A stretch of 64,000 bases of DNA from Haloarcula hispanica ATCC 33960 (GTDB taxonomy: Archaea > Halobacteriota > Halobacteria > Halobacteriales > Haloarculaceae), in assembly GCF_000223905.1 (NCBI RefSeq), contig NC_015944.1, positions 310,001 to 374,000 of the forward strand. The letters are read 5' to 3'. The notes beneath the pieces were generated by a model, which had not been told where the DNA came from, did no database searches, and saw only the letters and a program-made list of their open reading frames with translations. Both the position numbers and the translations under genes were made by a program. This document shows positions 28,869-44,500 of the stretch, in pieces. Each line of letters starts with the position of its first letter. Positions within the stretch are counted from its first letter, which is position 1.

Positions 28869-29423
28869 GTGGATATTGAACTCACAATCAACGGCGAGCG
28901 AACGAGAGTCGAAGCCGGGTCGGCGGAGGACCTGGCGACGGTTTTGAGACAACACGGCTACATCGGCGTGAAATGTGGCTGCGACGGCGGAGCCTGCGGC
29001 GCATCGAAGGTGTTCGTCGACGGCGAGGTGCGCATGGCCTGCGGAATGGCCGCGGCGGACGCCGACGGGAGTGAGATACAGACCGTCGCAGCGCTCGGAA
29101 CACAGGACGACCTGCACCCGGTGCAGCAGGCGTTCGTCGACAACTTCGCCGTCCAGTGCGGGTTCTGTATCCCAGGGATGATAATTCAGGCGGTGGCACT
29201 GCTGGATTCGAACCCAGACCCAACCGAGCGGGAAGTCCGGGAGGCGCTGGACGACAACATCTGTCGCTGTACCGGCTATCAGAAGCCGGTCGAAGCCGTT
29301 CTGGACGCAGCAGAACGAATGCAGGGGGAGCAGTCGGTTGCCGCGGACGGCGGCCGGTCGGTCGATGGGCCCCCGCGCAGAGCCGAGTCGACCGGCTGCT
29401 GTGGAGGTGGCTGCGATGAGTGA
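28869..29423 (+). CDS. Molybdenum hydroxylase [2Fe-2S] subunit 1, with an altered cluster ligand
   Basis: This 184-residue small subunit belongs to a xanthine-dehydrogenase/CO-dehydrogenase-type hydroxylase and moves electrons from the molybdenum centre. The plant-type ferredoxin domain has KCGCDGGACGASKVFVDG (residues 35-52). The expected third ligand in CGxC is Ser46, with C38, C43 and C58 present and an extra C36. The second cluster is intact: QCGFCIPGM and DNICRCTGYQK. The tail is low complexity and ends in a Cys-rich STGCCGGGCDE. It starts at a GTG (28869) that is consistent with the family N terminus, and its stop overlaps the start of the large subunit (ATG at 29416). Confidence 0.87.
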   Translation: MDIELTINGERTRVEAGSAEDLATVLRQHGYIGVKCGCDGGACGASKVFVDGEVRMACGMAAADADGSEIQTVAALGTQDDLHPVQQAFVDNFAVQCGFCIPGMIIQAVALLDSNPDPTEREVREALDDNICRCTGYQKPVEAVLDAAERMQGEQSVAADGGRSVDGPPRRAESTGCCGGGCDE

Positions 29424-31866
29424 CGACGACGAGACAGCCAGGGCCGACGGCGGCACGGCCTCACAGTCAGAGACTGTCGAAGACGAACGGTTCGAGGAGC
29501 ACCCTCTCGAATGGGACGAACCCGAGAACAACGACAAGGCTCCGGACGAGCGCGACAGTGTCTCCCACCGGACGGAGAAGTACGACGACCGAAAGCTCGT
29601 CACCGGGCAGGCGAAGTACACCGCCGACTACGAGGAGCGGTATCCGGACCTCGCATACGCAGCGGTCGTCCGAAGCGAAATCCCACACGGCCGCGTGACC
29701 GATATCGACACGAGCGCGGCCGAGGCGATGGACGGCGTCGAAGCGGTCCTGACACCGGAATCCGACGCGGTGCCGGACGCGAAATACACCAGCGCCGGGC
29801 AGTCCTATCCCGAACCGAGCCCGTGGGACATGCGCGTGCTGAACGAGCACGTCCGCTACATCGGCGACCCGATTGCCGCCGTCGCAGCCGACGACCGGAC
29901 AACCGCGAGCGCCGCCGTCGAGGCTATCGAGGTGTCGTACGAGGAGTACGACTACGTCACCGACCCGGAGGACGCCTTCGGCGAGGACGCGCCGCAGTTG
30001 TTCGAGGGCGGCGAGGTCGAGAACGAGATTGTCGGCCACGACTACGACCGCAACCGGATGGCCCACATCGAGGGCGAACTCGGAGACGTGGACGCGGCGC
30101 TCGACGGCGAGACCCACGTCCACGAGACCGAATGGGAGACGATCCGACAGTCTCACGCGAACGTCGAGAAACACACCTCCTTGGCCTACACGAACGAGGA
30201 CGACCGCCACGTCCTCATCACCAGCACGCAGGTGCCGAACCACACGCGCCGCCAGCTCGCCCACCTGTTCGACATCCCGATCCGTGATATCCGCGTGACG
30301 AAGCCGCGGGTCGGCGGCGGGTTCGGCGGGAAACAGGCGATGGTCGTCGAGCCGATTCCACTCGCGCTGTCGCTTGCCACCGATCGCCCGGTCCTGTACG
30401 AAGCCAGCCGTGAGGAGGAGTTCTACGCGATGCGCTCGCGGCACCCAATGAAGGTCAAAGCGAAGACGGCCGTCACCGACGACGGCGACATCGAAGCCAT
30501 CGACATCTACGCGCTTTCGAACACCGGCGCGTACGGCAGCCACGGCATGACCGTCGCGGGCAACGTCGGGAGCAAGCCGCTGCCGCTGTACTCGAAGGTC
30601 CCGAACGTCCACTTCGAGGCCGATATCGTTCACACGAACACGCCCCAGACCGGGGCGATGCGGGGGTACGGCGCGCCACAGGGCACGCTTGCGCTGGAAG
30701 GCCATCTCGACGAGGTCGCCCGCGACCTCGGTCTCGATCCCGTCGAGTTCCGACGCCGACACCACATGGAAGTCGGCGACCTTGACGAGATCGCGGGGAT
30801 GATGGGCGGCGAAGGCGCGGAGCGCCGTATCCGGTCGTGTGGCCTCGACGAGTGCATCGAACGCGGGAAGGACGCTATCGGCTACGACGACCTCGAACAG
30901 CCCGCCGCAGACCATCTGCACCGCGGCATCGGGATGGCGCTGTCCGCGCAGGGGACCGGCGTCGCCGGCGACGAACTCGGGGCCGCCCAGATAATGATGA
31001 ACGAGGACGGGAGCTTCCACCTGCAGGTCGGCGGCGTCGATATCGGTACCGGCGCTGACACGGCGTTCCTCCAGATCGCCGCCGAAGTGCTGGGCTGTGA
31101 TGAGGCTGACATAGTCGTCAAGTCCGCCGATACTGACGTGACGCCCTTCGACTACGGCGCGTACGCCTCCTCGACAACCTACATCAGCGGTATGGCCGTG
31201 AAGAAGGCCGCAGAGGACGCGAAAGAGCGGATTCTCGACTGGGGATCGAAACTGCTCGACGAGCCGACCGAGAACCTGAAAACCGGCGACGGGACGGTGT
31301 ACAGCGAGACTAGCGGCGATTCCGTCACGCTCGAAGATATCGGCTACGAGGCTGTCTATGGCGACGACGAGCGCGAACACATCCTGGGGAAGGGGACGCA
31401 CTGCACCGAAGAGAGTCCCCCGCCCTTCGCCGCGCAGTTCGCCGACGTGACCGTCGACGAGACCACCGGCGAGTTCGAGGTGCACGAACTGGTCGTCGCG
31501 GTCGACTGCGGCGTCGCCATCAACCCCGGCATGGCCGAGGGCCAGATCGAAGGCGCAAACCACATGAGCTACGAGATGGCCGTCAGCGAGGGGATCACCC
31601 TCGACGACGAGGGACGGGCGGAAGTGGCTGACTTCGACGAGTACGGACTGCCGTCGGCGACCGAGACGCCGCCCATCGAGTCGATTCTGGTCGAGACACA
31701 CGAGCCGACCGGTCCCTTCGGTGCGAAATCGGTCGCCGAAGTCCCGACCAATACGGTCCCGCCGGCGCTGTCCAACGCCGTCCGGGACGCCATCGGCGTC
31801 CGGGTCCGTGAGATGCCCATTACCGCCGAGAAAATCAAGGCGAGGCTTGACGAGCGCAAGGACTGA
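29416..31866 (+). CDS. Molybdenum hydroxylase molybdopterin-binding subunit 1 (XdhA/XdhD-like)
   Basis: This 816-residue large subunit binds the molybdenum-molybdopterin cofactor. Seen: the N-terminal aldehyde-oxidase-type domain (VTGQAKYTADYEE), the MoCo-binding VGGGFGGKQAMV, GAMRGYGAPQGTLALEGHLD, GVDIGTGADTAFLQIAAEVLG and the near-C-terminal FGAKSVAEVPTNTVPP with the catalytic Glu. The 70-residue acidic N-terminal extension is typical of haloarchaea. It is translationally coupled to the [2Fe-2S] gene. The substrate is unknown; purine, xanthine or nicotinate-like heterocycles are possible. No FAD subunit lies beside it. Its place beside selD, yqeB and yqeC suggests a selenium-modified cofactor. 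Confidence 0.9.
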   Translation: MSDDDETARADGGTASQSETVEDERFEEHPLEWDEPENNDKAPDERDSVSHRTEKYDDRKLVTGQAKYTADYEERYPDLAYAAVVRSEIPHGRVTDIDTSAAEAMDGVEAVLTPESDAVPDAKYTSAGQSYPEPSPWDMRVLNEHVRYIGDPIAAVAADDRTTASAAVEAIEVSYEEYDYVTDPEDAFGEDAPQLFEGGEVENEIVGHDYDRNRMAHIEGELGDVDAALDGETHVHETEWETIRQSHANVEKHTSLAYTNEDDRHVLITSTQVPNHTRRQLAHLFDIPIRDIRVTKPRVGGGFGGKQAMVVEPIPLALSLATDRPVLYEASREEEFYAMRSRHPMKVKAKTAVTDDGDIEAIDIYALSNTGAYGSHGMTVAGNVGSKPLPLYSKVPNVHFEADIVHTNTPQTGAMRGYGAPQGTLALEGHLDEVARDLGLDPVEFRRRHHMEVGDLDEIAGMMGGEGAERRIRSCGLDECIERGKDAIGYDDLEQPAADHLHRGIGMALSAQGTGVAGDELGAAQIMMNEDGSFHLQVGGVDIGTGADTAFLQIAAEVLGCDEADIVVKSADTDVTPFDYGAYASSTTYISGMAVKKAAEDAKERILDWGSKLLDEPTENLKTGDGTVYSETSGDSVTLEDIGYEAVYGDDEREHILGKGTHCTEESPPPFAAQFADVTVDETTGEFEVHELVVAVDCGVAINPGMAEGQIEGANHMSYEMAVSEGITLDDEGRAEVADFDEYGLPSATETPPIESILVETHEPTGPFGAKSVAEVPTNTVPPALSNAVRDAIGVRVREMPITAEKIKARLDERKD

Positions 31867-32871: not shown

Positions 32872-33450
32872 ATGAGCCATATGGAAATCGAACTGGAGAT
32901 TAACGATGTGGAATGGACGGTCGACGCAGCGAAGTCCGACTCGCTCCTCGATGTCCTTCGGCGGAACGGATACACCGGCGCGAAACGGGGGTGTGACACC
33001 GGCGCGTGTGGCTTCTGTACGGTACACGTCGACGGCGAGCCGGTGAAATCCTGCGTCGAGCCGGTGATGAACGTAGAGGACGCATCTGTCGAGACAATCG
33101 AAGGGCTGGGCGAGCAGGACGAGCTGCATCCGGTCCAGCAGGCCTTCGTCGACAACACCGCGTTGCAGTGTGGCTTTTGCATTCCGGGGATGATAATGCG
33201 CTCGACGGCGCTGCTAGAGGCGAACACGGACCCGACAGAGCAGGAGGTCCGGGAAGCGCTGTCGGACAATCTCTGTCGATGCACCGGCTACAAGAAAATC
33301 GTCGAAGCGGTGCTGGACGCCGCCGAGCGGATGGACGGCGGGACAGCCGTCGCCGCCGACGGTGGGAAGGCAGTCGAAGGCAACGAGAGGGTCGCAAATT
33401 CGACCGAGTGTACAGTCAACGACTGCGACTGCATGGAGGGCGGTCAGTGA
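32872..33450 (+). CDS. Molybdenum hydroxylase [2Fe-2S] subunit 2
   Basis: This 192-residue small subunit has both clusters intact: RGCDTGACGFCTVHVDGEP (with C at all three CxxxxCxxC positions) and VKSC, then LQCGFCIPGM and NLCRCTGYKK. It is 60 percent or so similar by eye to subunit 1 and has no ligand loss. A Cys-rich tail (ECTVNDCDCMEG) is present. The ATG at 32872 is listed, but the ATG at 32881 (MEIELEINDVEW) matches the start of the paralog better. Its stop overlaps the large-subunit GTG start. Confidence 0.9.
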   Translation: MSHMEIELEINDVEWTVDAAKSDSLLDVLRRNGYTGAKRGCDTGACGFCTVHVDGEPVKSCVEPVMNVEDASVETIEGLGEQDELHPVQQAFVDNTALQCGFCIPGMIMRSTALLEANTDPTEQEVREALSDNLCRCTGYKKIVEAVLDAAERMDGGTAVAADGGKAVEGNERVANSTECTVNDCDCMEGGQ

Positions 33451-35927
33451 GCGATTTCGACCGGGCTCGGGAGACGAGCGAGCAGCCCGACAGGACAGGG
33501 GTGGAAGACGCGGCCCCTGCCGGAGCTGAGAAGGAGTCAGAGGCGGACGTGGCACGGGAACCTGACCGGAAGCCCAAATCCGAACGCGACACCATCACGG
33601 CGGACGAGGAGAAAGACGACGCGCGGAAGATTGTGACCGGGGAGGCCCGTTACACGGCGGACTACCGCGACCGGTTTCCAGACCTCGCCCACGGGAAAGT
33701 GGTTCGCAGCGACATCGCCCACGGCTACGTCGAATCGGTCGACACGAGCGCCGCCGAGGCGATGGACGGCGTCGACGCCGTCATCACGCCGTTCGACGAC
33801 GTAGTCCCGGACAAACTGTACTCCAGTTCGGGCCAGTCCTATCCCGAGCCGAGCCCGTGGGACCTGAAAGTGTTGCGCGAGCACGTCCGCTTCGTCGGCG
33901 ACCCGGTCGCGGCTGTGGCGGCCGACGACCCGGAAGCGGCCGACCGCGCCGCACGGAAAATCGAAGTCGAATACCGGGAACTGGACGCCGTGTTCGACCC
34001 AGAGGAGGCCTTGGATGAAGACGCCCCGCAACTGTTCGAGACCGACGACGTGGAGAACAAGCAGTCGGGCGCGGACTACAGTAGAAACCTCGAATCACAC
34101 TTCGAGGGGGAACTCGGTGACGTGGAGGCGGCGTTTGAGCGGGCCAGCAACGACGACGACCGGCACGTCATCAAGACGGAATGGGAAACGCCGTACCAGT
34201 CCCACTGCGTCCCGGAACCGCACACGACCATCGCCTACACGGACGAGGATGACCGGCACACGTTCATCACAGCGACGCAGGTCCCCTTTCACACCCGCCG
34301 CCAGATAGCGCACCTGTTCGACGTGCCCATCCGTGACGTACGGGTGACGAAGCCGCGCATCGGCGCGGGGTTCGGGTCGAAACAGGAGATGGCGATAGAA
34401 CCCATCGCCTTCGCGCTCCACCTGGCGGCGGGCCGACCGGTCAAACTGGAGATGAGTCGTCAGGAGGAGTTCACCGCGCTCCGCTTTCGACACCCGATGC
34501 AGATGCAGATGCGGACTGCAGTCACTGACGAGGGCGATATCGAGGCGATGGACCTCTACACGCTGTCGAACTCGGGGGCTTACGGCACCCACGGCATGAC
34601 CGTCGCGAACAACGTCGGGACGAAGCCACTCCCCCTCTATCCCCGGGTCCCGAACGTCCGCTTTGCAGGGGACGTGGTACACACGAACCTTCCGATGGGC
34701 GCGGCGATGCGGGGCTACGGCGCGCCACAGGGCCACTTCGCCGTCGAAGCGCACATGGACGAGGTGGCCCGCCGCCTCGACTTCGACCCCATCGAGTTCC
34801 GCCTGCGGAACGCGGTCCAAGAGGGCGATCTCGACCGGAGCGTCGCTATCCTGAAAGACGGTGACCGGTTCACTCGACGGATTCGCTCGTGTGGCATCCG
34901 CGAATGTGTCGACCGCGGACGGGAGGCTATCGGCTACGACGACCTCGAACAGCCCGACGAAGACCACCGCAAGCGCGGCGTCGGAATGGCGCTCATCGCA
35001 CAAGGGAGCGGTGTCGCAGGCAAGGAACTCGGCGCGGCGCAGGTGCAGATGAACGAGGACGGGAGCTTCCACCTGCAGGTCGGCGGCGTCGACACCGGCA
35101 CGGGCGCGGACACGATGTTCTCCCAGATTGCCGCCGAGGTGCTGGGCTGCACTCCCGAGGACGTCGTCGTCATCGCTGCCGACACCGACCTGACGCCGTT
35201 CGACTACGGCGCGTACGCCTCCTCGACGACATACATCAGCGGTCGCGCGGTCAAGAACGCCGCCGAGGACGCCAAAGAGCGGCTGCTAGAGTGGGGGTCG
35301 AAACTGCTCGACGAGCCGCCGGACGTGCTCGACACCGGCGACGGCGGCGTGTTCAGCGAACGGACCGGAAACCGCGTGTCGCTGGAGGAGATCGGCTACG
35401 AGGCCACTTACGGCGATGACGAGCGTGAACACATCCTCGGGGACGGGAACCACTCGACCGACGAGAGCCCGCCGCCCTACGGCGCGCAGTTCGTCGACGT
35501 GACCGTCGATACGGAGACCGGCGAGTACGAACTCAACAAGCTGGTGTTTGCAGCCGACTGCGGCGTCGCAATCAACCCCGCACTGGTCGAGGGCCAGATA
35601 GAGGGCGGCGAGCACATGAGTCTCGAATACGCCACCAGCGGCGACCTCACCTTCGACGAGGAGGGCAACCCCGAAGTGCTCGGGTTCCGCCAGTACGGGA
35701 TGCCACGGACGACCGACCACCCCGAGATGGAGACCATCCTCGTCGAGACCCACGAACCCACGGGTCCGTTCGGCGCGAAATCTATCGCGGAACTCCCGAC
35801 GAACGGCGTCCCGCCGGCGCTCTCGAACGCCATCTGCGACGCTGTCGGCGTTCGGCTGACCGAGCTACCGTTCACTGCGGAAGACGTGACGGCGGCACTC
35901 GATGAGCAGTCTGCTGGCGATGGGTGA
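33447..35927 (+). CDS. Molybdenum hydroxylase molybdopterin-binding subunit 2
   Basis: This 826-residue large subunit is paralogous to subunit 1. Seen: VTGEARYTADYRDRF, MoCo segment RIGAGFGSKQEMAIEP (GSK where subunit 1 has GGK), AAMRGYGAPQGHFAVEAHMD, GVDTGTGADTMFSQIAAEVLG and FGAKSIAELPTNGVPP with the catalytic Glu. It starts at a GTG (33447) that overlaps the small-subunit stop, a GTGA junction. Its 60-residue charged N-terminal extension has no clear function. It probably acts on a different heterocycle from subunit 1, because active-site-facing blocks differ. No FAD subunit adjoins it. Confidence 0.9.
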   Translation: MSDFDRARETSEQPDRTGVEDAAPAGAEKESEADVAREPDRKPKSERDTITADEEKDDARKIVTGEARYTADYRDRFPDLAHGKVVRSDIAHGYVESVDTSAAEAMDGVDAVITPFDDVVPDKLYSSSGQSYPEPSPWDLKVLREHVRFVGDPVAAVAADDPEAADRAARKIEVEYRELDAVFDPEEALDEDAPQLFETDDVENKQSGADYSRNLESHFEGELGDVEAAFERASNDDDRHVIKTEWETPYQSHCVPEPHTTIAYTDEDDRHTFITATQVPFHTRRQIAHLFDVPIRDVRVTKPRIGAGFGSKQEMAIEPIAFALHLAAGRPVKLEMSRQEEFTALRFRHPMQMQMRTAVTDEGDIEAMDLYTLSNSGAYGTHGMTVANNVGTKPLPLYPRVPNVRFAGDVVHTNLPMGAAMRGYGAPQGHFAVEAHMDEVARRLDFDPIEFRLRNAVQEGDLDRSVAILKDGDRFTRRIRSCGIRECVDRGREAIGYDDLEQPDEDHRKRGVGMALIAQGSGVAGKELGAAQVQMNEDGSFHLQVGGVDTGTGADTMFSQIAAEVLGCTPEDVVVIAADTDLTPFDYGAYASSTTYISGRAVKNAAEDAKERLLEWGSKLLDEPPDVLDTGDGGVFSERTGNRVSLEEIGYEATYGDDEREHILGDGNHSTDESPPPYGAQFVDVTVDTETGEYELNKLVFAADCGVAINPALVEGQIEGGEHMSLEYATSGDLTFDEEGNPEVLGFRQYGMPRTTDHPEMETILVETHEPTGPFGAKSIAELPTNGVPPALSNAICDAVGVRLTELPFTAEDVTAALDEQSAGDG

Positions 35928-35969: not shown

Positions 35970-36027
35970 AGTGTTTTTTGTTGTGTCGAGCAAACTATTA
36001 AGAGCAGGTCGGCGAAATCTCGACAGT

Positions 36028-36399
36028 ATGGCGTACATCGGGTTTCTGCTGACAGGCGGTCCCTTCGACAGCGAGCGATGGCGTACCGCCTACGAGCTGG
36101 GCCGGGCGGCGCTGGACCAAGGCCACGAGGTGAGCTACTTCCACTACCTCGACGGCGCGCTTGTCCCCGTCGCCGACCAGACGTTGCCCGGCTGTTCGGA
36201 CAGCGGACTGTACGACGAGATGCCGACAGAGAAGTTTCAGGAGCTTATCGCGGACGGCGCGGACGTCATCTGCTGCGGGCTCTGTGTCGACGCGCGGGGA
36301 ATCGATGCGCCGGCCGACTACCCCGAGGGCGTCGAAGTCGGGCTGCTTCCGGACCTGGCGGACATCATCGGTGAGGCTGACCGGGTGGTCTCGCTATGA
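36028..36399 (+). CDS. DsrE-like sulfur/selenium carrier subunit
   Basis: This 123-residue protein has a DsrE/TusD-type fold. Seen: an N-terminal YIGFLLTGGPFDSERWRTAY, a Rossmann-like strand pattern and a Cys cluster GADVICCGLCVDARG near residue 83. The CxxC-type cysteines resemble the active-site Cys of DsrE/TusD that carries persulfide. It is the first gene of a four-gene operon with ATGA overlaps to the next. Next to selD and the YqeB/YqeC genes, a role in carrying selenium for cofactor making is likely but not shown. Confidence 0.78.
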   Translation: MAYIGFLLTGGPFDSERWRTAYELGRAALDQGHEVSYFHYLDGALVPVADQTLPGCSDSGLYDEMPTEKFQELIADGADVICCGLCVDARGIDAPADYPEGVEVGLLPDLADIIGEADRVVSL

Positions 36400-36749
36400 A
36401 ACGAGATGTCGTCGTGTTGCTCACCCGCGCTCCGTGCGGCCGAGTCCACATCCCGGAGGGGCTGCGTGCCGCCCGCGGCGTCGCAGCTGGCTTCGATATG
36501 CACGACGTGACGGTGATATTCACCCAGGACGGCGTGTACGGCGCTCGGGACGCTGTCGGCCGCGAGGCGCTCAACATGAGCGGGCACGTCGCCGACTTAG
36601 CGGAACAGGGCGGACAGATGATCGCGGACCGCGCGGCGATGGCCGAACGCGGCGTCGACGAGGGTGAAATCGCCGACGACGTAACAGTCTGGTCGGACGA
36701 CCGCGTCACCGCCCGCATCCGTGACGCCGACCACACACTGGATTTCTGA
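36396..36749 (+). CDS. DsrF/TusC-like protein
   Basis: This 117-residue protein with the pattern of DsrF/TusC: DVVVLLTRAPCGRVHIPEGL at the start, then an alpha/beta core with TVIFTQDGVYGARDAVGRE and a final DDVTVWSDDRVTARI. One Cys (Cys14 in APCGRV) could be the acceptor site. It overlaps the preceding gene by four bases (ATGA) and precedes the DsrH-like gene by two bases. It probably forms a hexamer with the DsrE- and DsrH-like proteins, as DsrEFH and TusBCD do. Confidence 0.7.
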   Translation: MKRDVVVLLTRAPCGRVHIPEGLRAARGVAAGFDMHDVTVIFTQDGVYGARDAVGREALNMSGHVADLAEQGGQMIADRAAMAERGVDEGEIADDVTVWSDDRVTARIRDADHTLDF

Positions 36750-36751
36750 TA

Positions 36752-36997
36752 ATGTTGTATCTCATCGACAAGCCGATGGCCGAAATCGGACTGCGAACCG
36801 CCGCCGGGGACCCAGAGGCGCACGTCGTCCTCATTCAGGACGGCGTCTACCTCTCGCCGGATATCGACGCGCCAGTCTCGGCGGTCGCGAGGGACGTGGA
36901 CGTACGGGGGGTCGACCTCACGCCGGACATCGACCCCATACCCTACGACGACGTAGTCGCTGCCATCGTCGAACAGGAGGTGAAGAGCTTCGTATGA
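36752..36997 (+). CDS. DsrH/TusB-like protein
   Basis: This 81-residue protein has the DsrH/TusB-type strand pattern (MLYLIDKPMAEIGLRTAAG, HVVLIQDGVYLSPD) and DVDVRGVDLTPDIDPIPYDDV. It lacks a conserved cysteine, as some TusB proteins do. Its stop overlaps the start of the YqeB-like gene (ATGA), so all four genes form one translationally coupled run. The set DsrE-DsrF-DsrH in this order matches the sulfur relay complex. Confidence 0.68.
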   Translation: MLYLIDKPMAEIGLRTAAGDPEAHVVLIQDGVYLSPDIDAPVSAVARDVDVRGVDLTPDIDPIPYDDVVAAIVEQEVKSFV

Positions 36998-38574
36998 GCC
37001 TGTTCGAACGTATCGACGAACTGGCCGGACAAGGGGTGCCGGCGGCCTTGCTGACCATCGTCCGCAAGGACGGCAGTGCACCGCGGGACGTGGGGGACAA
37101 GATGGTCGTCACCGACGACGAGGAGTACGGGACCATCGGCGGCGGGACAGTCGAGCACCTCGCCGTCCAAGACGCTCGGTCAGTACTCTCGGGAGCCGAC
37201 GACCCCGGCGTCCGGACGTACGAACTCGAACGCGGCGGTAACACGGGAATGGTCTGTGGCGGCGAGATGGAGGTGTTCATCGACCGCGTTCGCGGGCAGG
37301 CATGGCTCTACATCGCCGGCGGCGGCCACATCAGCACGGAGCTTGCTCCGCTGGCGGAGCGACTGGGCTACGCCGTCACCGTGGTCGACGACCGCGAGGC
37401 CTACGCCGACCCGGGGCAGTTTCCCGACGCTACCGACGTGATTCACGGCGACTACGGCGAGGCGCTCGGCGACCTGCCGATGGGGACCGAGACAGCCGTG
37501 GCAGTTGCGACGCGGAGCGGGACGTTCGACCAGGACGCCGTCGCTGCGGCGCTGGACGGCGAAGCTGGCTACGTCGGCCTCGTCGCCAGCGAGACGAAGG
37601 CCAACCACGTCCTCGACTCGCTCGCCGAGTCGGGGTACGCCCGACGGGACCTCAGCCGGGTCCGAACGCCGGTGGGACTCGACCTCGGCGGGAGCGGGCC
37701 GGCCGCCGTCGCACTCTCGATTCTCGCCGAGGTCACCATGGACCGCCACGACGCCGCCGGTGAGCGGGCGACGCGCCTGAACCTCGACGACCTCGTCGTT
37801 GTCCGCGGCGGTGGCGACCTCGGGAGCGGCGTGGTCTACCGGCTCCAGCAGGCCGGCTTCCCGGTCATCGTCACCGAAGTCGAACAGCCGACAGTCGTCC
37901 GGCGGGCGGTCGCCTTCGGTGCGGCGCTGTACGAGGACGAGGTGACTGTTGAGGGGGTCACCGGCCAGGCAGCTTCTGATGTCGACGAGGCGCTCGAACT
38001 GCTCGCCGGCGATGTCGTCCCGGTACTCGTCGACCCAGAGGCAACCGTCGCCGACGAACTCGATGCCGCGGTGCTCGTCGACGCTATCATGGCGAAAGGG
38101 AAGTTCGACACCGGCACGCGTCGAGGGGACGCCGACGTAGTTGTCGGGATGGGGCCGGGGTTCGAGGCCGGTGAGGACGTGGACGCGGTCGTCGAAACGG
38201 ACCGCGGGCACGAACTCGGCCGCGTGTTCTACGAGGGGACTGCGAGCGAATACGACGGCGAGCCCGGCGAACGGCGCGGCTACACTCACGAGCGGGTGCT
38301 TCGTTCCCCGGCCGACGGTAATTGGACTCCGACGGTCGCCATCGGCGACAGTGTCACAGCCGGCGACGTGGTCGGCACCGTCGACGACCGGCCGGTCGAG
38401 ACCGAGATAGACGGGCTGGTTCGCGGTCTGGTCCACGGCGGCCTCGGCGTCAGCGAGGGCACAAAGCTCGGCGACGTCGACCCCCGCGGCGAGTCCGTCG
38501 ACCCAGCGAAGATCTCCGACAAGGCGCTGTGCCTCGGCGGTGGCGTGCTGGAGGCGACGCTTCGGTTGCGGTAG
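36994..38574 (+). CDS. yqeB: YqeB-type molybdenum hydroxylase accessory protein (XdhC domain plus EF2563-like domain)
   Basis: This 526-residue fusion has an N-terminal XdhC/CoxI domain (VPAALLTIVRKDGSAPRDVG, GTIGGGTVEHLAVQDARSVL, LYIAGGGHISTELAPLAERL). Its C-terminal half matches the selenium-dependent hydroxylase maturation family EF2563/YqeB (LDDLVVVRGGGDLGSGVVYR, GMGPGFEAGEDVDAVVETDRG, and a C-terminal ALCLGGGVLEA). XdhC-type proteins bind the molybdenum cofactor and hand it to the hydroxylase after sulfuration. The EF2563-type half is a marker of selenium-modified molybdenum hydroxylases. E. coli YqeB has about the same length and the same domain order. The gene is the last of the DsrEFH operon and converges with selD, with only 17 bases between the stops. 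Confidence 0.88.
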   Translation: MSLFERIDELAGQGVPAALLTIVRKDGSAPRDVGDKMVVTDDEEYGTIGGGTVEHLAVQDARSVLSGADDPGVRTYELERGGNTGMVCGGEMEVFIDRVRGQAWLYIAGGGHISTELAPLAERLGYAVTVVDDREAYADPGQFPDATDVIHGDYGEALGDLPMGTETAVAVATRSGTFDQDAVAAALDGEAGYVGLVASETKANHVLDSLAESGYARRDLSRVRTPVGLDLGGSGPAAVALSILAEVTMDRHDAAGERATRLNLDDLVVVRGGGDLGSGVVYRLQQAGFPVIVTEVEQPTVVRRAVAFGAALYEDEVTVEGVTGQAASDVDEALELLAGDVVPVLVDPEATVADELDAAVLVDAIMAKGKFDTGTRRGDADVVVGMGPGFEAGEDVDAVVETDRGHELGRVFYEGTASEYDGEPGERRGYTHERVLRSPADGNWTPTVAIGDSVTAGDVVGTVDDRPVETEIDGLVRGLVHGGLGVSEGTKLGDVDPRGESVDPAKISDKALCLGGGVLEATLRLR

Positions 38575-38591
38575 AAGGCTCCTACTAGACG

Positions 38592-39632
38592 TTAGGAACG
38601 GACTTCTTCGAGGGTCAGGTCATCCAGCGTAACGCCGCTGCCGCCCGTGACACGCCCGACAGCTCGGTAGAACACGCTGGCGTCGTCGAACGCTGCTTCG
38701 ACGGCGTCGGTCGCGGCCGGCGGGACAGAGACGAACAGTCCGCCGCTGGTCTCCGCGCTCTCCCCGTCAGTTAGCCCGTATCCGAAAAGCGTGGAAAGGG
38801 CGGGCGTTCCTGCGATGACCGGGAGGTGTGTCAGTTCGATACCGACGTTCGAGCGGTCGGCCATCACGCGGCTCTGGCCGGCGAGGCCGAATCCGGTGAT
38901 ATCGGTCGCCGCGGTCGCGTATTCACGGCACGCCAGCGTTGCGTCCCGGTTCGGGGTCGTCATCCACGCGATGGCCTCCGAAGCAATACTGTCGAGCGGG
39001 CGGTCAGCGGCGTCGGTGACTGTCTCAACGAACTGCGCGTCGGTCACGCGGGTCGCCCCCATAGCCGGCTGTGTCCCGAGCGGTTTGGTCAGGTAGAGCC
39101 GGTCGCCCGGGCTGGCCCCCTGCGAAGTGAGCAGGGCGTCTGGCCGTGCTGTCGCCGAGATGGCGCCACCGGCGAAAGGCCACGGACTCATGATTGTGTG
39201 GCCGCCGGCGATGACGCCGTCCATCGCGTCCAGTGCGTCGGCCATGCCGGCGAGGATTGAGGCCGCGCTGTCGGTTAGTTCTCGTGGGAGGCCGAGGACG
39301 ACCAGGCAGTCGACGTTCTCGACGGCCCCCGTGGCGAACGCGTCGCTAGCGGCGTTACAGGCCGCGACACGGCCGAAGTCGTACGGATCGTCGACGATAG
39401 GCGTGAAGAAATCCACCGTCGAGACCAGCGCGAGCTCGTCGGTAAGTTTCCGGGCGGCGGCGTCCTCGCCGACACCGAACAGCAGCGCGTCGCTGTCACC
39501 CGTGAGGCCGGCATCGGCGAGCAGCGAATCGAGATCGCTCTGGCCGACTTTGCAGGAACAGCCGTGGAGTTCCGTGTACTCCGTCAGGCGAGTCGTCTCC
39601 TCGTCTCCATCAGCCGCCGTATCGGTGCCCAC
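38592..39632 (-). CDS. selD: Selenide, water dikinase
   Basis: SelD makes selenophosphate from selenide and ATP. This 346-residue protein has the active-site loop LHGCSCKVGQSDL, with the catalytic Cys and Lys, and the ATP/metal site LLFGVGEDAAARKL. DFFTPIVDDPYDFGRVAACNA follows, and GVIAGGHTIMSPWPFAGGAI and GATDITGFGLAGQS-type segments complete the family pattern. It has no in-frame stop, so the catalytic residue is Cys, not selenocysteine. The length equals bacterial SelD when the GTG at 39632 is used; an upstream in-frame extension is Arg-rich and overlaps the TusA-like gene, so it is unlikely. Its start follows the TusA-like stop by two bases. No selA or selB is seen here. Confidence 0.92.
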   Translation of the reverse strand: MGTDTAADGDEETTRLTEYTELHGCSCKVGQSDLDSLLADAGLTGDSDALLFGVGEDAAARKLTDELALVSTVDFFTPIVDDPYDFGRVAACNAASDAFATGAVENVDCLVVLGLPRELTDSAASILAGMADALDAMDGVIAGGHTIMSPWPFAGGAISATARPDALLTSQGASPGDRLYLTKPLGTQPAMGATRVTDAQFVETVTDAADRPLDSIASEAIAWMTTPNRDATLACREYATAATDITGFGLAGQSRVMADRSNVGIELTHLPVIAGTPALSTLFGYGLTDGESAETSGGLFVSVPPAATDAVEAAFDDASVFYRAVGRVTGGSGVTLDDLTLEEVRS

Positions 39633-39634
39633 AC

Positions 39635-39883
39635 TCAGGCCTCCGATAGCGACGCCATCTCGGTCACCTGAAGTTCGAGTTCGAACTCGTCGGACTCGCC
39701 GGCGGTCTCTGCGGTCGTCACGTCGATGCCGTGAGTCGTACACATCCGCCGCAGGTTCTTTTCGGCCGGTGGGTAATCACCTCGAACGACGAGCGTCTCC
39801 CCAGGGTCGAGGTCTGAAAGCGCCTGCCGGACAATGAGCGCCGGCCGGGGACAGATTTCACCACGAACGTCTACGCGGGGCAT
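39635..39883 (-). CDS. TusA/SirA-like sulfur or selenium carrier
   Basis: This 82-residue protein begins MPRVDVRGEICPRPALIVRQ, with the conserved CPxP motif (ICPRP) whose Cys carries sulfur, and a TLVVRGDYPPAEKNLRRMC segment typical of the family. It is the first gene of the tusA-selD operon. In Enterococcus and E. coli the selenium-cluster protein YedF combines a SirA/TusA-like and a DsrE-like part. Here those parts are separate genes, which fits this being a selenium carrier that feeds SelD or the cofactor. Confidence 0.82.
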   Translation of the reverse strand: MPRVDVRGEICPRPALIVRQALSDLDPGETLVVRGDYPPAEKNLRRMCTTHGIDVTTAETAGESDEFELELQVTEMASLSEA

Positions 39884-39977: not shown

Positions 39978-40757
39978 ATGCATCTGGCTGCTGCGCTGGG
40001 TCTGGGTTCCAGCGCTGCTGTCGCCTTTGTCGGGGCCGGTGGGAAGAAAACCGCGATGGGACAGTTGACCGCCGAAGGAACCGACGAGGGGTACGATGTG
40101 GGTTACACGACAACGACAGCGATGCCACCGCCGCCTGACCTGCCGCTGACGCTCACTGGCCCGGACGAGTGGTGCGACGACCTCGACGAACACGAACCGC
40201 CAGTTGCCTTCGCTCGCGAGAGGGTAGCCGATCCGGCGCGAGTCGACTGGAAGGTTCGCGGATTCGACGCGAGTGTGGTGGAACAGCTATCCGAGGCTGG
40301 ACTGTTCGACTGGCTGCTCGTCAAGGCTGACGGCGCACGCAAGCGCGAGTTCAAAGCGCCCGGTGCTAGGGAACCGGTCGTACCGAGGACAGCGAGCCAC
40401 GTCGTTCCGGTCGCCTCAGTCGCCGCCGTCGGTGAAGTGCTGACGACGGACGTGGTCCACCGGCCGGAGCGGGTAGCGGACATCACAGGCCTCGATGTGG
40501 GCGACACCATTACGGTGGAGGCTGTCGGGACAGTGCTCACACATCCTGAGGGTGGGCTCCGAAACGCGCCAACCGAGGCGTCTGTGATACCGCTGGTCAA
40601 CAAAGCGGATACCGAATCACAGCGGCGTACCGCCAGAGACGTTCTCAGCCACGCACTGTCGCAGACAGGCCGGTGTTCTCGGGGCGTGATTACGTCGTTC
40701 GCGTCGGATATCTGTGAGGTCGTCGCTGCGACGGATGTGCAGGAGGACCAGCGGTGA
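39978..40757 (+). CDS. yqeC: YqeC-like selenium-dependent hydroxylase accessory protein
   Basis: This 259-residue P-loop-type protein begins with a nucleotide-binding FVGAGGKKTAMGQL (the YqeC/GAGGKT family). It also has DVGYTTTTAMPPPPD, DWLLVKADGARKREFKAPG and EPVVPRTASHVVPVASVAAV. YqeC proteins are found almost only with selenium-dependent molybdenum hydroxylases and SelD; their exact reaction is not established. The ATG at 39978 fits the TATA-like element at 39948 for leaderless initiation. It is the first gene of a run with the MocA-like and RidA genes. Confidence 0.85.
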   Translation: MHLAAALGLGSSAAVAFVGAGGKKTAMGQLTAEGTDEGYDVGYTTTTAMPPPPDLPLTLTGPDEWCDDLDEHEPPVAFARERVADPARVDWKVRGFDASVVEQLSEAGLFDWLLVKADGARKREFKAPGAREPVVPRTASHVVPVASVAAVGEVLTTDVVHRPERVADITGLDVGDTITVEAVGTVLTHPEGGLRNAPTEASVIPLVNKADTESQRRTARDVLSHALSQTGRCSRGVITSFASDICEVVAATDVQEDQR

Positions 40758-40803: not shown

Positions 40804-41421
40804 ATGAGCGGGCAGCACCGGACCGAAGTCGGTGGCGTCGTCCTCGCCGCTGGGCGGAGTTCACGGTACGAGCCGGGTAACAAACTACTGGCAACCATCG
40901 GCGGAAGGGCAGTCGTCCGACAGGTAGCCGAAACCGCATGTGAGTCACCGCTGTCGGACGTTGTCGCCGTCCTCGGATACGAGGGCGTGGCTGTCGCTGA
41001 GGCGCTAGAGGCGCTCTCAGTTTCGCTTCGTCATAACGACGATTACGCGGCCGGCCAGAGCGCGTCGGTTCGACATGGAGTCGACTATGCACAGGAATCC
41101 GGCTGGGACGCCGCCCTGTTCCTACTGGGCGATATGCCCTTCGTCCGGGCCGAAACTATCGAGGTGCTTATCGAAGCGTACCGTACAGGGACGGCAACCG
41201 TCGTCGTTCCCGAACACGAGGGGACGCGGGGCAACCCCGTGCTATTCGACGGCTACCACTTCGATGCGCTCGCCTCAGTCTCCGGCGACCGCGGCGGTCG
41301 GGATATCATCGAGACCACCGAGCGGACAGCGTTCATCGAGGTTGAGGACCCCGGCATCCACTGGGATATCGATACCGATGCTGACCTCGCCGAGTTCGCG
41401 GACCGCCGCGACAGCCTGTAA
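40804..41421 (+). CDS. mocA: Molybdenum cofactor cytidylyltransferase-like protein (MocA family)
   Basis: This 205-residue nucleotidyltransferase has the GxG-type motif VVLAAGRSSRYEPGNKLLATIGG and the metal-binding FLLGDMPFV. GTRGNPVLFDGYHFDAL follows, and DIDTDADLAEFA is the typical C-terminal end. MocA adds cytidine to the molybdopterin cofactor, making the dinucleotide form that many hydroxylases use. In E. coli, ygfJ/mocA lies in the same cluster type. It follows yqeC after 46 bases. Confidence 0.87.
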   Translation: MSGQHRTEVGGVVLAAGRSSRYEPGNKLLATIGGRAVVRQVAETACESPLSDVVAVLGYEGVAVAEALEALSVSLRHNDDYAAGQSASVRHGVDYAQESGWDAALFLLGDMPFVRAETIEVLIEAYRTGTATVVVPEHEGTRGNPVLFDGYHFDALASVSGDRGGRDIIETTERTAFIEVEDPGIHWDIDTDADLAEFADRRDSL

Positions 41422-41453: not shown

Positions 41454-41834
41454 ATGAAACGGACCATCAGCACGGCCGATGCACCCGATGCGGTCGGCGC
41501 GTACAGCCAGGCGACGACAAACGGCTCGCTCGTGTTCACCGCGGGCCAGATTCCGATGACGCCAGACGGCGACCTGCTGGACGACGAACCGATAGCGACG
41601 CAGGCGGAACAGGCGCTATCGAACGTCGAAGCGGTGATAGCTTCGGAGGGACTGGAGATGAGCGACGTGTTGAAAGTGACCGTCTATCTGGACGACATCG
41701 ACGATTTCGAGTCGATGAACGACACGTACGCCGGCTTTTTCGACGACGAGCCGCCGGCCCGGAGCGCGGTCGAGGTCGCAAGCCTGCCAAAGGACGTGGG
41801 AGTCGAAATCGAAGCAATCGCGACGAGCGAGTAA
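41454..41834 (+). CDS. RidA-family protein
   Basis: This 126-residue protein of the RidA/YjgF family has TADAPDAVGAYSQATTNGSLVFTAGQIPM, AEQALSNVEAVIASEG, DVLKVTVYLDDIDDF and PARSAVEVASLPKDVGVEIEAIA, with the conserved catalytic Arg in PARS. RidA-type proteins hydrolyse reactive enamine/imine products formed by PLP enzymes such as the threonine-synthase-like one in this island. It closes the yqeC-mocA run and converges with the second aminohydrolase gene, with 19 bases between the stops. Confidence 0.9.
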   Translation: MKRTISTADAPDAVGAYSQATTNGSLVFTAGQIPMTPDGDLLDDEPIATQAEQALSNVEAVIASEGLEMSDVLKVTVYLDDIDDFESMNDTYAGFFDDEPPARSAVEVASLPKDVGVEIEAIATSE

Positions 41835-41853
41835 GGGCACCGCCAAGGGCCAC

Positions 41854-43188
41854 TCAGGGCTTCTGTTCCTGTGCGGACTTGCGTTCGTCTTCGAGGTCCA
41901 TCTCAAGCCCCATAGTCGAGGCCTCTTCACGCACGGCGTCGGCGTCGATGGTGGTTACCTCGCCGTGTTCCATAAGCACGTTCCCGTCGACCATCGTGAA
42001 GCGGACGTCGTCGCCGTGGGCCGCAAACACTAGATGGGAGAGCACGTCGTGCAGCGGCGTCGCCCGCGTAAGGTCCGTATCCAGACCGACGATGTCGGCG
42101 CGCCACCCCTCCCGAATCGCGCCGAGTTCGTCGAAGCCGGCGGCTTTCGCGCCGTTGCGCGTCGCCATCTCGAAGATCTCGGCCGCGGGCGTCACTGTCG
42201 GGTCTAGCTGATCGACCTTCTGGAGGAGACTCGCCTGTCGCATCTCGGTGAACGCGTCGAGCGTGTTGTTACAGGGCGGTCCGTCGTTGCCGATGGCGAC
42301 GTTGATACCGCGGTCACGGTAGTCCCAGATCGGCGCGATGCCGCTGGCGAGTTTCATGTTCGAGGACGGGCAGTGGGTGACGTGCGTCCCCGTTTCTGCG
42401 AGGACTTCGCGCTCGCTCTCGTCGGTCCAGACGCAGTGCGCAAGGACGACGTCCTCACCGGTGAGACCCACCTCGTCGAGCCAGTGGATGTTGCGCATCC
42501 CGGTATCCTCTTTGACCGTCTCGATTTCGCTCTGGTTCTCACTGGCGTGGGTGTGGATGCGGACGCCGTCGTATTTGTCCACGAGTTCGCGCACTCCCCG
42601 GAGACAGGCCTCGCTACAGGAGACGGCGAATCGCGGGGTGACAGCGTACCGAATCCGGTCGTTGTAGGCACCGTGATACTGCTGAATGAGCCGCTCGGAC
42701 TCCTCCAGTGCGGCCTGCGTATCCTCCAGCAGCCCATCCGGCGAGCGCTGGTCCATCAGCACCTTGCCGAGCACGCCACGGATACCGATCTCGCCCGCCG
42801 CTTCGAAGGCGCGGTCCGCGTGGGCGACCGAGAGGTGGTCGATACAGGTCGTAGTCCCGCTTTCGATCATCTCCAGATAGCCCAGTTTCGCCGCGACTTC
42901 CATCTCCTCGGCGGTCAAGGAGGCCTCCATCGGCAGAATGTAGTCGAATAGCCAGTCGAGCAGTTCCGTGTCGTCGGCGATGCCACGGCCAAGGCTCTGT
43001 ACGGAGTGGATGTGGCCGCCGACGAGTCCCGGCAACAGCACGTCGTAGGACTGGTGTTCGTGGTCGGCGTACTGCGATTCGAGTTCGGCACGTGAACCCA
43101 CAGCCTCGATACGGTCCCCGGAGACGACGACCGCCCCGTCCTGCAGGACGGTCTCAGAATCCGCAACGACAGTCCCAGTGAGTAGCAT
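41854..43188 (-). CDS. TRZ/ATZ-type aminohydrolase (guanine-deaminase or adenosine-type deaminase family)
   Basis: This 444-residue amidohydrolase-superfamily enzyme of the COG0402 group removes amino groups from purine-like rings. Seen: VGGHIHSVQSLGRGIADDTE (first metal pair), RIHTHASENQSEI, VVLAHCVWTDESE, HCPSSNMKLASGIAPI and NVAIGNDGPPCNNTLDAFTE with the catalytic Asp. The C-terminal GFDELGAIREGWRADIVGLD completes the fold. It is only distantly like the SsnA-like gene at 13515, so the island has two separate deaminases. Its tail ends with an acidic, Lys-containing ELDLEDERKSAQEQKP-like stretch. Confidence 0.85.
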   Translation of the reverse strand: MLLTGTVVADSETVLQDGAVVVSGDRIEAVGSRAELESQYADHEHQSYDVLLPGLVGGHIHSVQSLGRGIADDTELLDWLFDYILPMEASLTAEEMEVAAKLGYLEMIESGTTTCIDHLSVAHADRAFEAAGEIGIRGVLGKVLMDQRSPDGLLEDTQAALEESERLIQQYHGAYNDRIRYAVTPRFAVSCSEACLRGVRELVDKYDGVRIHTHASENQSEIETVKEDTGMRNIHWLDEVGLTGEDVVLAHCVWTDESEREVLAETGTHVTHCPSSNMKLASGIAPIWDYRDRGINVAIGNDGPPCNNTLDAFTEMRQASLLQKVDQLDPTVTPAAEIFEMATRNGAKAAGFDELGAIREGWRADIVGLDTDLTRATPLHDVLSHLVFAAHGDDVRFTMVDGNVLMEHGEVTTIDADAVREEASTMGLEMDLEDERKSAQEQKP

Positions 43189-43278
43189 ACGTCCTGCAAG
43201 AGGGTCTCTACATAAAGAAGGTCCTCATATCGGGACGACCGCCGAGTGCAGACAACCCGGCCACAGACGTGTGGCACT

Positions 43279-43286
43279 CCGTGTGT
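43279..43286. promoter_or_regulatory. CCGTGTGT site upstream of the second aminohydrolase
   Basis: An exact plus-strand copy 90 bases before the start at 43188. Flank CACTCCGTGTGTCGCG; the bases GACGTGTGGCA before it and CGTGTGC after it add further GTGTG repeats. Confidence 0.5.
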
Positions 43287-43307
43287 CGCGTGTGCTTCGC
43301 AGTGGCC

Positions 43308-43505
43308 TCATCTTTCCGAGCCGTTCCGTGTCCGTTTTTGACGGGTGATGTATCTAGTGAGTCTGGTTTGGGTACGAAACGAATCCACGCTGGCAAGTCG
43401 CTGAACGAGACGAGTGTTTGTCTCGTACTGCTCAGTAAACAGTTCGGGGTACTCCGACAGTAGCCTGTCGCCGATGTCGATTATCTCCTGGGGGTCGGCC
43501 TGCAT
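43308..43505 (-). CDS. Ribosomal protein S17e-like small protein
   Basis: This 65-residue protein shows the S17e pattern: an N-terminal helix (IIDIGDRLLSEYPELF), a spaced YETNTRLVQRLASVDSF and a final RTQTRLTRYITRQKR. In archaeal S17e these parts read as a long helix, FxxNKxxV and RNRIAGYVTRK. The typical RNRIAGYVTR is reduced to QTRLTRYITR, so it looks like a divergent paralog and not the housekeeping gene. It sits beside a NadE-like gene away from other ribosomal genes. It may have a new role. Confidence 0.55.
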   Translation of the reverse strand: MQADPQEIIDIGDRLLSEYPELFTEQYETNTRLVQRLASVDSFRTQTRLTRYITRQKRTRNGSER

Positions 43506-43651
43506 GGGTGTGAGAATCGCGGAGTGTGGCTGTTAACTGCTTTGCTCACAGAAATACCACGTTTGGCTCGTACTGTTGGCTGTCCCTCTTGCGAGAGATT
43601 TGTGACTCCCCGGGGGTGGCGAAATACGCCACAGACGAACAGCCGACAGTG

Positions 43652-44500
43652 TCAGTTATCCATCGATGGCTTTGGTGGCGTGTGTCGCTTGTGGCGCGTA
43701 CTGGCACACCACTGAACCGTACGCTCAACGACAGATTCGCTGACACCGACCTTGTCAGCCACCGCCGACACGGAACAGCCTCTATCAATCGCGAAGTGGA
43801 GGACGCTGTCGAGGTCTCGCTGGTCGATACCCAGTTCCGCCGCATCAGTTGCCCCAGTGTGCTCCATTGGATGGGGTGACTGGTCGAGGAGGTCCGATGG
43901 AACCGCAAGTGCAGCAGCCAGGGCCTCGATCTCAGTTCTATAGAGGTCGCCAAACAGCGACAGGTCCACGCCGTTCTCGCCGTGTTTCGCAACGGAGCCC
44001 AGCAGTCGGTCAGTCCGGGAGACAGTCCCTACAACGAGTTCGTTCCTGGTGTTTGCGACGTAGTACTTACACGCCATCCGGAAGCGTTCGCCAGCGTTTT
44101 GCATCGCCACGAGGTCGTCGGTCGGCCCCCCGGTCTCACCGACAACTCGCTGGAACGCCGTCAGCACTGGCTGCAGATTGAGCCGGTGACAGTCGATGTC
44201 AAGCAGCGACGCGACGGTTTCAGCCGTCCGAGCAGGCCCCTCGTCGCTTAGCTGTACCGGCATCACCAGTCCAGTCACGTAGTCGGCCCCGATGCCGTCG
44301 ACAGCCAGCGCCGCCGCAACTGTCGATTCGATGCTGCCGTCGAGCGGAACGACCAGTCCGTTAGCCTCCGCCTCCGTGATCTTGTTCTCCAGGAACACCG
44401 GAAGGATTCCCTGTATCCGTCTGGTCGCTGCCTTCGACGTCGCCAATCCGTGGTCCTCACGCGGGAGTGTGAGCGTGTGAGGGTGCGTCGCTTTACTCAC
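43652..44500 (-). CDS. NAD synthetase (NadE)-like protein with an altered P-loop
   Basis: This 282-residue protein has the NadE layout. GTVSRTDRLLGSVAKHGENGVDLSLFGDLYRTEIEAL is close to the NadE block ending in GNRSELLLGYFTKYGD. A C-terminal HTH-like ADKVGVSESVVERTVQW-STRHKRHTPP end is usual for archaeal NadE. The N-terminal pyrophosphate-binding SGGxDSTV motif is replaced by LDGSIESTVAAAL, so ATP-dependent synthesis is doubtful. It starts at a GTG (44500). A standard nadE gene is expected elsewhere in the genome. Role unknown. Confidence 0.68.
   Translation of the reverse strand: MSKATHPHTLTLPREDHGLATSKAATRRIQGILPVFLENKITEAEANGLVVPLDGSIESTVAAALAVDGIGADYVTGLVMPVQLSDEGPARTAETVASLLDIDCHRLNLQPVLTAFQRVVGETGGPTDDLVAMQNAGERFRMACKYYVANTRNELVVGTVSRTDRLLGSVAKHGENGVDLSLFGDLYRTEIEALAAALAVPSDLLDQSPHPMEHTGATDAAELGIDQRDLDSVLHFAIDRGCSVSAVADKVGVSESVVERTVQWCASTRHKRHTPPKPSMDN

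Follow-up and report, generated by a model that had tools for sequence, protein, structure and literature searches.

In this work we describe a selenium-cofactor locus in a 64,000-nucleotide stretch of the genome of the archaeon Haloarcula hispanica ATCC 33960 (contig NC_015944.1, positions 310,001 to 374,000; the whole stretch is hereafter called the window, and coordinates refer to it), in which genes for a trio of proteins resembling the sulfur-relay complex DsrEFH/TusBCD are coupled to the selenium genes yqeB and selD. The trio opens a four-gene, head-to-tail operon on the forward strand, comprising a dsrE-like gene (36028..36399), a dsrF-like gene (36396..36749), a dsrH/tusB-like gene (36752..36997) and a gene fusion, xdhC-yqeB (36994..38574), which by family assignment joins a molybdenum cofactor (Moco)-binding XdhC part (XdhC_C, 1e-36) to the selenium-cofactor protein YqeB (TIGR03309, 1e-111). 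A TATA-like box at 35996..36003 on the same strand, ~25-30 nt before the dsrE start, is a putative leaderless promoter, and an AT-rich element of this kind lies at that distance 5' of dsrE in nearly all of the 30 loci described below. Converging on this operon, with 17 nt between the two, is a reverse-strand operon consisting of a tusA-like gene (39635..39883; PF01206, 1e-16) and, starting 2 nt after it, selD (38592..39632; GTG start), which encodes a selenide, water dikinase scoring above cut-off for TIGR00476 (2e-82) and NF010705 and carrying the active-site motif GCSCK (Cys25/Cys27 and Lys28). These are followed on the forward strand by yqeC, for a selenium cofactor biosynthesis protein (39978..40757; PF19842, 1e-32; TIGR03172, 7e-57, above cut-off) that is present in the fetched loci too, and by a gene for a mocA-like nucleotidyltransferase of the molybdenum cofactor (40804..41421; TIGR03310, 1.8e-42, below its cut-off); no cysteine desulfurase was seen in the block from dsrE to mocA. 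Two pairs of small and large molybdenum hydroxylase subunit genes precede the trio on the forward strand (28869..31866 and 32872..35927; large subunits XdhA-type, 1.7e-200 and 7e-198, respectively), with homologues in most loci. The presence of selD, yqeB and yqeC together at hydroxylase genes identifies the Se-cofactor trait of selenium-dependent molybdenum hydroxylases (SDMH).

This arrangement is conserved to an unusual degree. The window and the 29 fetched loci all have their genes in the sequence dsrE, dsrF, dsrH and yqeB, then selD and tusA in reverse orientation, and then yqeC (30/30), a sharing of content and order that is far beyond chance. The same holds for the spacing of the genes, with overlaps of 4 nt between dsrE and dsrF and between dsrH and yqeB in all 30 loci and a 2-nt spacer between dsrF and dsrH in 27 of them. 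In four loci (L071, L074-L076) the hydroxylase genes have been inverted or relocated while the block of dsrEFH, yqeB, selD and tusA stays intact, and in a Halodesulfurarchaeum metagenome-assembled genome (L097) a hydroxylase pair lies between the trio and yqeB, the trio still being within the locus. DsrE has the highest mean pairwise identity in the module (86%), followed by YqeB (78%), DsrF (74%), SelD (73%), DsrH (71%), TusA (68%) and YqeC (62%).

We sampled 391 haloarchaeal genomes, a part of the known haloarchaea, in which YqeB above cut-off, SelD above cut-off and locus-type DsrE (counted at 64-100% identity and at least 175 bits) were each found in 30. The three sets are identical, being the same 30 genomes from 9 genera, and TusA accompanies selD, yqeB and dsrEFH in every one of them. 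The other 361 genomes, which include nine Haloarcula genomes, lack locus-type DsrE, SelD and YqeB alike; other DsrE matches listed did not exceed ~40% identity and remained under 31 bits, except for one 34-residue piece, and below-cut-off matches to the SelD model, which occur in all 391 genomes and presumably represent other AIR-synthase-like proteins, were not counted. Fisher's exact test gives p = 1e-45 for the co-occurrence, a value that, with related genomes and linked genes, does not tally events that are independent of one another. For control, XdhC above cut-off was found in 166 genomes, and locus-type DsrE in none of the 136 of these that are without selD and yqeB; similarly, seven control hydroxylase/XdhC loci (L130-L136) contain XdhC, and YqeB, SelD, TusA and DsrEFH were not found in them. 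Generic XdhC/Moco maturation is thus ruled out as the sole explanation for the trio by the 136 XdhC genomes. A DsrE-profile scan of one genome per species returned 21 loci, all haloarchaeal and none bacterial, with patterns that reach close relatives only, and a plasmid search with DsrE gave 14 haloarchaeal matches at 80-100%, the next lying at ~30%. SepSecS and selenouridine (SeU) synthase were each absent from all 30 genomes (SelB and tRNASec were not searched for), and SelD is an orphan as judged on these two enzymes. The initial annotation had described a TusA-like gene coupled to selD and a DsrE-F-H-like trio coupled to yqeB in converging operons, an arrangement seen in all 30 loci, the window included, and had proposed looking for the trio beside orphan selD in other haloarchaea, where 30/30 selD/yqeB genomes have it. 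The case it named as contrary, a trio with the same neighbours in a genome without selD, was sought among the haloarchaea and not found except as one decayed scar. Together these observations support the assignment of DsrEFH and TusA to the selenium/hydroxylase module.

The scar is that of Natronococcus jeotgali (L078/L099), which has neither SelD nor YqeB above cut-off and keeps one hydroxylase gene, followed by a deletion scar in which 34 dsrE codons are joined to a short stretch that can be read as the fusion gene's XdhC motif (scar piece LITEDDKYGTIGGGT; window counterpart VVTDDEEYGTIGGGT). Remnants of dsrE and of xdhC-yqeB are thus both found in the scar, and the loss of dsrE appears to have gone along with that of the selenium genes. 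The decayed locus (L078:1-5700) lies beside genes read by eye as an adenine deaminase and a purine permease, neighbours that suggest a purine substrate.

With regard to family identity, the trio belongs with TusBCD/DsrEFH. Three adjacent genes encode DsrE-superfamily subunits in the order E, F, H in 30/30 loci; DsrE and DsrF score above the Pfam DsrE cut-off (PF02635, 3e-20 and 3e-8), while DsrH matches PF04077 at 3.6e-4, slightly below cut-off. Profiles built from the haloarchaeal set and matched to known structures connected DsrF with Allochromatium vinosum DsrF (2hy5_B, 3.4e-7), DsrH with Thermotoga TM0979 (2e-7), TusA with TM0983 (6e-9) and, weakly, DsrE with YchN, DsrE and TusD. The predicted structure of DsrH (pLDDT, the predicted local distance difference test score, 95.7) has as its top solved match TusB of TusBCD (2d1p_C), with DsrH matched too; the DsrE model was of low confidence (pLDDT 57) and was kept out of the fold search. 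The curated TusD, TusC and TusB equivalogs TIGR03012, TIGR03010 and TIGR03011 were not reached (20.4, 28.2 and 21.4 bits against cut-offs of 89, 94 and 49), and with scores so far under equivalog level the trio forms a distant group of this kind. Distant relatives occur on the methanogen side, where E-F-H trios (L166, L168, L176) share the gene order and the CxxC of DsrE at 28-37% DsrE identity, and where 20 of 21 genomes with DsrE relatives lack SelD above cut-off. In the neighbourhood of these trios are genes for ArsR-type regulators, for a protein of the LMWPc family, for an ArsP-type permease and for an SBF-family symporter, hinting at a metalloid-linked role of the complex there. One non-haloarchaeal archaeon has both a true SelD and a relative of DsrE on a single contig, ~40 kb from each other (G573:C2:26015 and 65721).

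The cysteines of the module follow a consistent pattern. Invariant in 30/30 are Cys82, Cys83 and Cys86 of DsrE (motif CCGLC), Cys11 (of the CPxP motif, CPRP in the window) and Cys48 of TusA, Cys25 and Cys27 of SelD, and Cys88 and Cys513 of XdhC-YqeB, and Cys83 and Cys86 of DsrE are invariant in the methanogen relatives as well. No cysteine is conserved in either DsrF or DsrH across the 30 loci, so that Cys20 of the sulfur-oxidiser type DsrH has no counterpart. An active-site cysteine of the DsrE/TusD type is present in DsrE, its equivalence to Cys78 resting on family alignment. The initial annotation had pointed to CICCGLC-type cysteines in DsrE; the CCGLC is there, although the motif reads VICCGLC, beginning with V rather than C. 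The retention of cysteines in DsrE (C83-G-L-C86) and TusA (C11), with none in DsrF or DsrH, fits a complex in which the chalcogen is borne by DsrE; DsrE was likewise the sole carrier of sulfur found in A. vinosum (PMC3397948) and in cable bacteria (PMC13293266). DsrC/TusE (PF04358), the usual acceptor, is absent from all 30 genomes, so that the acceptor must be another protein, for which the closely coupled XdhC-YqeB would be the obvious candidate.

Several further genes recur in the surroundings of these loci. A second TusA-like gene lies within ~17 kb of selD in 14 of 15 SDMH genomes outside Haloarcula and in 0 of 15 in Haloarcula, in some cases with the motif in a CPxT-type form (examples are G254:C2:97609, G192:C2:329649, G359:C1:2534599 and L096:15297). 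In one locus (L138:7751-9458) it is adjoined by genes for a phosphonate-type ABC binding protein (PF12974) and an ABC ATPase, genes for a purine permease and MoeA being close by; these ABC genes may form a system for taking up selenium like the one guessed at by Haft and Self (pNG7234). In another (L142:6083-6463) a NifU-like scaffold gene adjoins the second TusA. Genes for a RidA-like protein, an amidohydrolase and an NAD synthase lie 3' of mocA (window 41454-44500), the first two recurring near many selenium loci.

On balance, we favour the view that TusA and DsrEFH relay a chalcogen (selenium, sulfur or both) and are dedicated to the selenium-cofactor system of haloarchaea, where they act in hydroxylase maturation. 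Gene association, operon structure, family identity, the conserved cysteines and the absence of the usual acceptor support such a relay. In it, TusA and DsrE would exchange persulfide or perselenide, in the manner of the sulfur transfer between the two in cable bacteria; TusA would work next to SelD, and DsrEFH would give the chalcogen to, or take it from, the XdhC-YqeB fusion holding the molybdenum cofactor, leaving the hydroxylases with selenium as their terminal ligand. A number of considerations weigh against this view. Co-occurrence stems in part from physical linkage in one transferable locus, so that the 30 genomes do not stand for as many separate events; for Enterococcus faecalis, the genes listed at the bacterial locus include no DsrEFH (PMC2432076), which indicates that the trio is not needed everywhere; the related methanogen trios without SelD imply that the complex is not selenium-specific by nature; and we infer the direction of the relay, the atom carried (selenium or sulfur) and the acceptor.

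The possible cargoes and roles of the relay can be ranked. A perselenide relay to SelD or to Moco, as the initial annotation had suggested, would be chemically plausible, and we tentatively entertain its stronger form, in which DsrEFH and TusA would be a true perselenide carrier passing selenium from or past SelD to the Moco on XdhC-YqeB, a sulfur relay thus recruited to the missing insertion step. A little more doubtful is that the trio carries sulfur, bringing persulfide sulfur to the Moco on XdhC in place of the cysteine desulfurase of bacterial XdhC, the sulfido ligand being swapped for selenium later: sulfur carriage is established for TusBCD/DsrEFH complexes (PMC3397948, PMC13293266), Moco-dependent functions of Escherichia coli require TusA (PMC3831636), the dsrE-to-mocA block shows no desulfurase, and the trio shares its operon with xdhC-yqeB and not with selD, but the 136 XdhC haloarchaea and the control hydroxylase loci do without the trio, so that sulfuration alone does not call for it. 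We regard as unlikely that the trio is a redox or detoxification device for reactive selenium, reducing selenite or Se0 or trapping free selenide with no relay to SelD or Moco. The CxxC of DsrE would suit this role, a redox/detoxification role was put forward by Lin et al. for YedF, which has a CGxC (PMC5322559), and the methanogen trios have their metalloid-like setting; however, the strict coupling to xdhC-yqeB, with 4-nt overlaps, points to cofactor maturation.

Very improbable is a 2-thiouridine relay for tRNA, the role of TusBCD, that is merely carried along with the locus, or a trio that is a neutral passenger. Family resemblance to TusBCD speaks for the tRNA role, and the authors of a study of Methanococcus maripaludis read TusAD in this way (PMC11097638); the role was nonetheless rejected on the lack of locus-type DsrE in 361 of 391 haloarchaea and of TusE in all 30 genomes, and strong conservation, fixed operon spacing and the decay of dsrE fragments along with the selenium locus argue against both variants. 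On the origin of the genes, the initial annotation had held that the functions of bacterial YedF are split here between separate DsrEFH and TusA genes. DsrEFH and TusA do lie in the selenium module, but descent of the tusA-like gene from one half of YedF and of dsrE from the other finds no support and seems to us rather improbable, more so than detoxification. The TusA part scores best, though far below cut-off, with the N-terminal part of the YedF model (8/8 members match), the C-G-L-C of DsrE fits the CGxC of YedF (PMC5322559), so that with CPRP in TusA both YedF motifs are present, and both parts sit in selenium loci. DsrE, on the other hand, matches the TusD model in 8/8 members and the YedF model weakly in 3/8 (a comparison of models, not a direct alignment with YedF sequences); no fused YedF scores above the TIGR03527 cut-off in the 30 genomes, where the model covers the TusA part only; DsrF and DsrH have no counterpart in YedF; and E-F-H trios exist as distant relatives in methanogens. 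Judging by these sequences, recruitment of a sulfur-relay complex to the selenium locus would be a simpler history, and the complex may possibly do the job of YedF with different parts.

No route by which selenium reaches the hydroxylase molybdenum has been established, and not even selenophosphate has a proven part in it (PMC11448449). The haloarchaeal selenium genes probably put selenium into certain molybdenum enzymes, and a complex whose three genes are tightly tied to yqeB and selD is a new candidate for the selenium-delivery step in a cultivable host, its strict association suggesting a delivery route for selenium or sulfur. Should the cargo be selenium, a sulfur relay of the DsrEFH/TusA type would have been converted to selenium use, for which we know of no other example.

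Part of this system has been described before. A selenium-cofactor locus of the same type on pNG700 of H. marismortui, with an orphan selD (pNG7239), a TusA-like gene (pNG7238), an xdhC-yqeB fusion (pNG7241), yqeC (pNG7237) and hydroxylases (pNG7244/7246), was reported in 2008 (PMC2276186; PMC2432076). In the consulted portions of these accounts DsrE, DsrF and DsrH are neither named nor tied to the trait, and in those of the 2008 and later literature we found no report linking DsrEFH to it; to that extent the selD/yqeB/TusA-like part has been known since 2008 and the addition of DsrEFH appears new. YedF (TIGR03527), reported as absent in archaea (PMC5322559), likewise places a CPxP TusA-like domain beside selD and has a DsrE-like part with CGxC, whereas the haloarchaeal parts are unfused and accompanied by DsrF and DsrH. 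The methanogen trios resemble the haloarchaeal one in gene order, the CxxC and RG motif of DsrE and a full-length match, and differ in their low DsrE identity, their regulator and transport neighbours and the general lack of SelD.

The classical DsrEFH/TusBCD systems of A. vinosum and E. coli, and the type II system of cable bacteria (PMC13293266), share with the haloarchaeal trio three adjacent subunit genes, an active cysteine in DsrE, a TusA partner encoded nearby and the fold common to TusB and haloarchaeal DsrH. The haloarchaeal trio is set apart by a CxxC instead of the single Cys78, by the lack of DsrH Cys20 and of DsrC/TusE, by scores far under the equivalog cut-offs and by its place in a selenium-cofactor operon. 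In cable bacteria, sulfur is transferred between TusA and DsrE both ways, and DsrF and DsrH are not persulfidated by TusA (PMC13293266). The TusA-DsrE clusters of sulfur oxidisers such as Metallosphaera cuprina (PMC4175335) also pair dsrE with tusA for cytoplasmic sulfur transfer, but they are tied to hdr sulfur-oxidation genes and have a DsrE3A with Cys-X7-Cys, and no SelD or YqeB is described for them. Finally, transcripts of the TusA-TusD pair of M. maripaludis rise by 4.5-4.6 log2 upon selenium depletion, a response unexplained by the authors (PMC11097638), which offers an independent archaeal hint that TusA/DsrE pairs answer to selenium.

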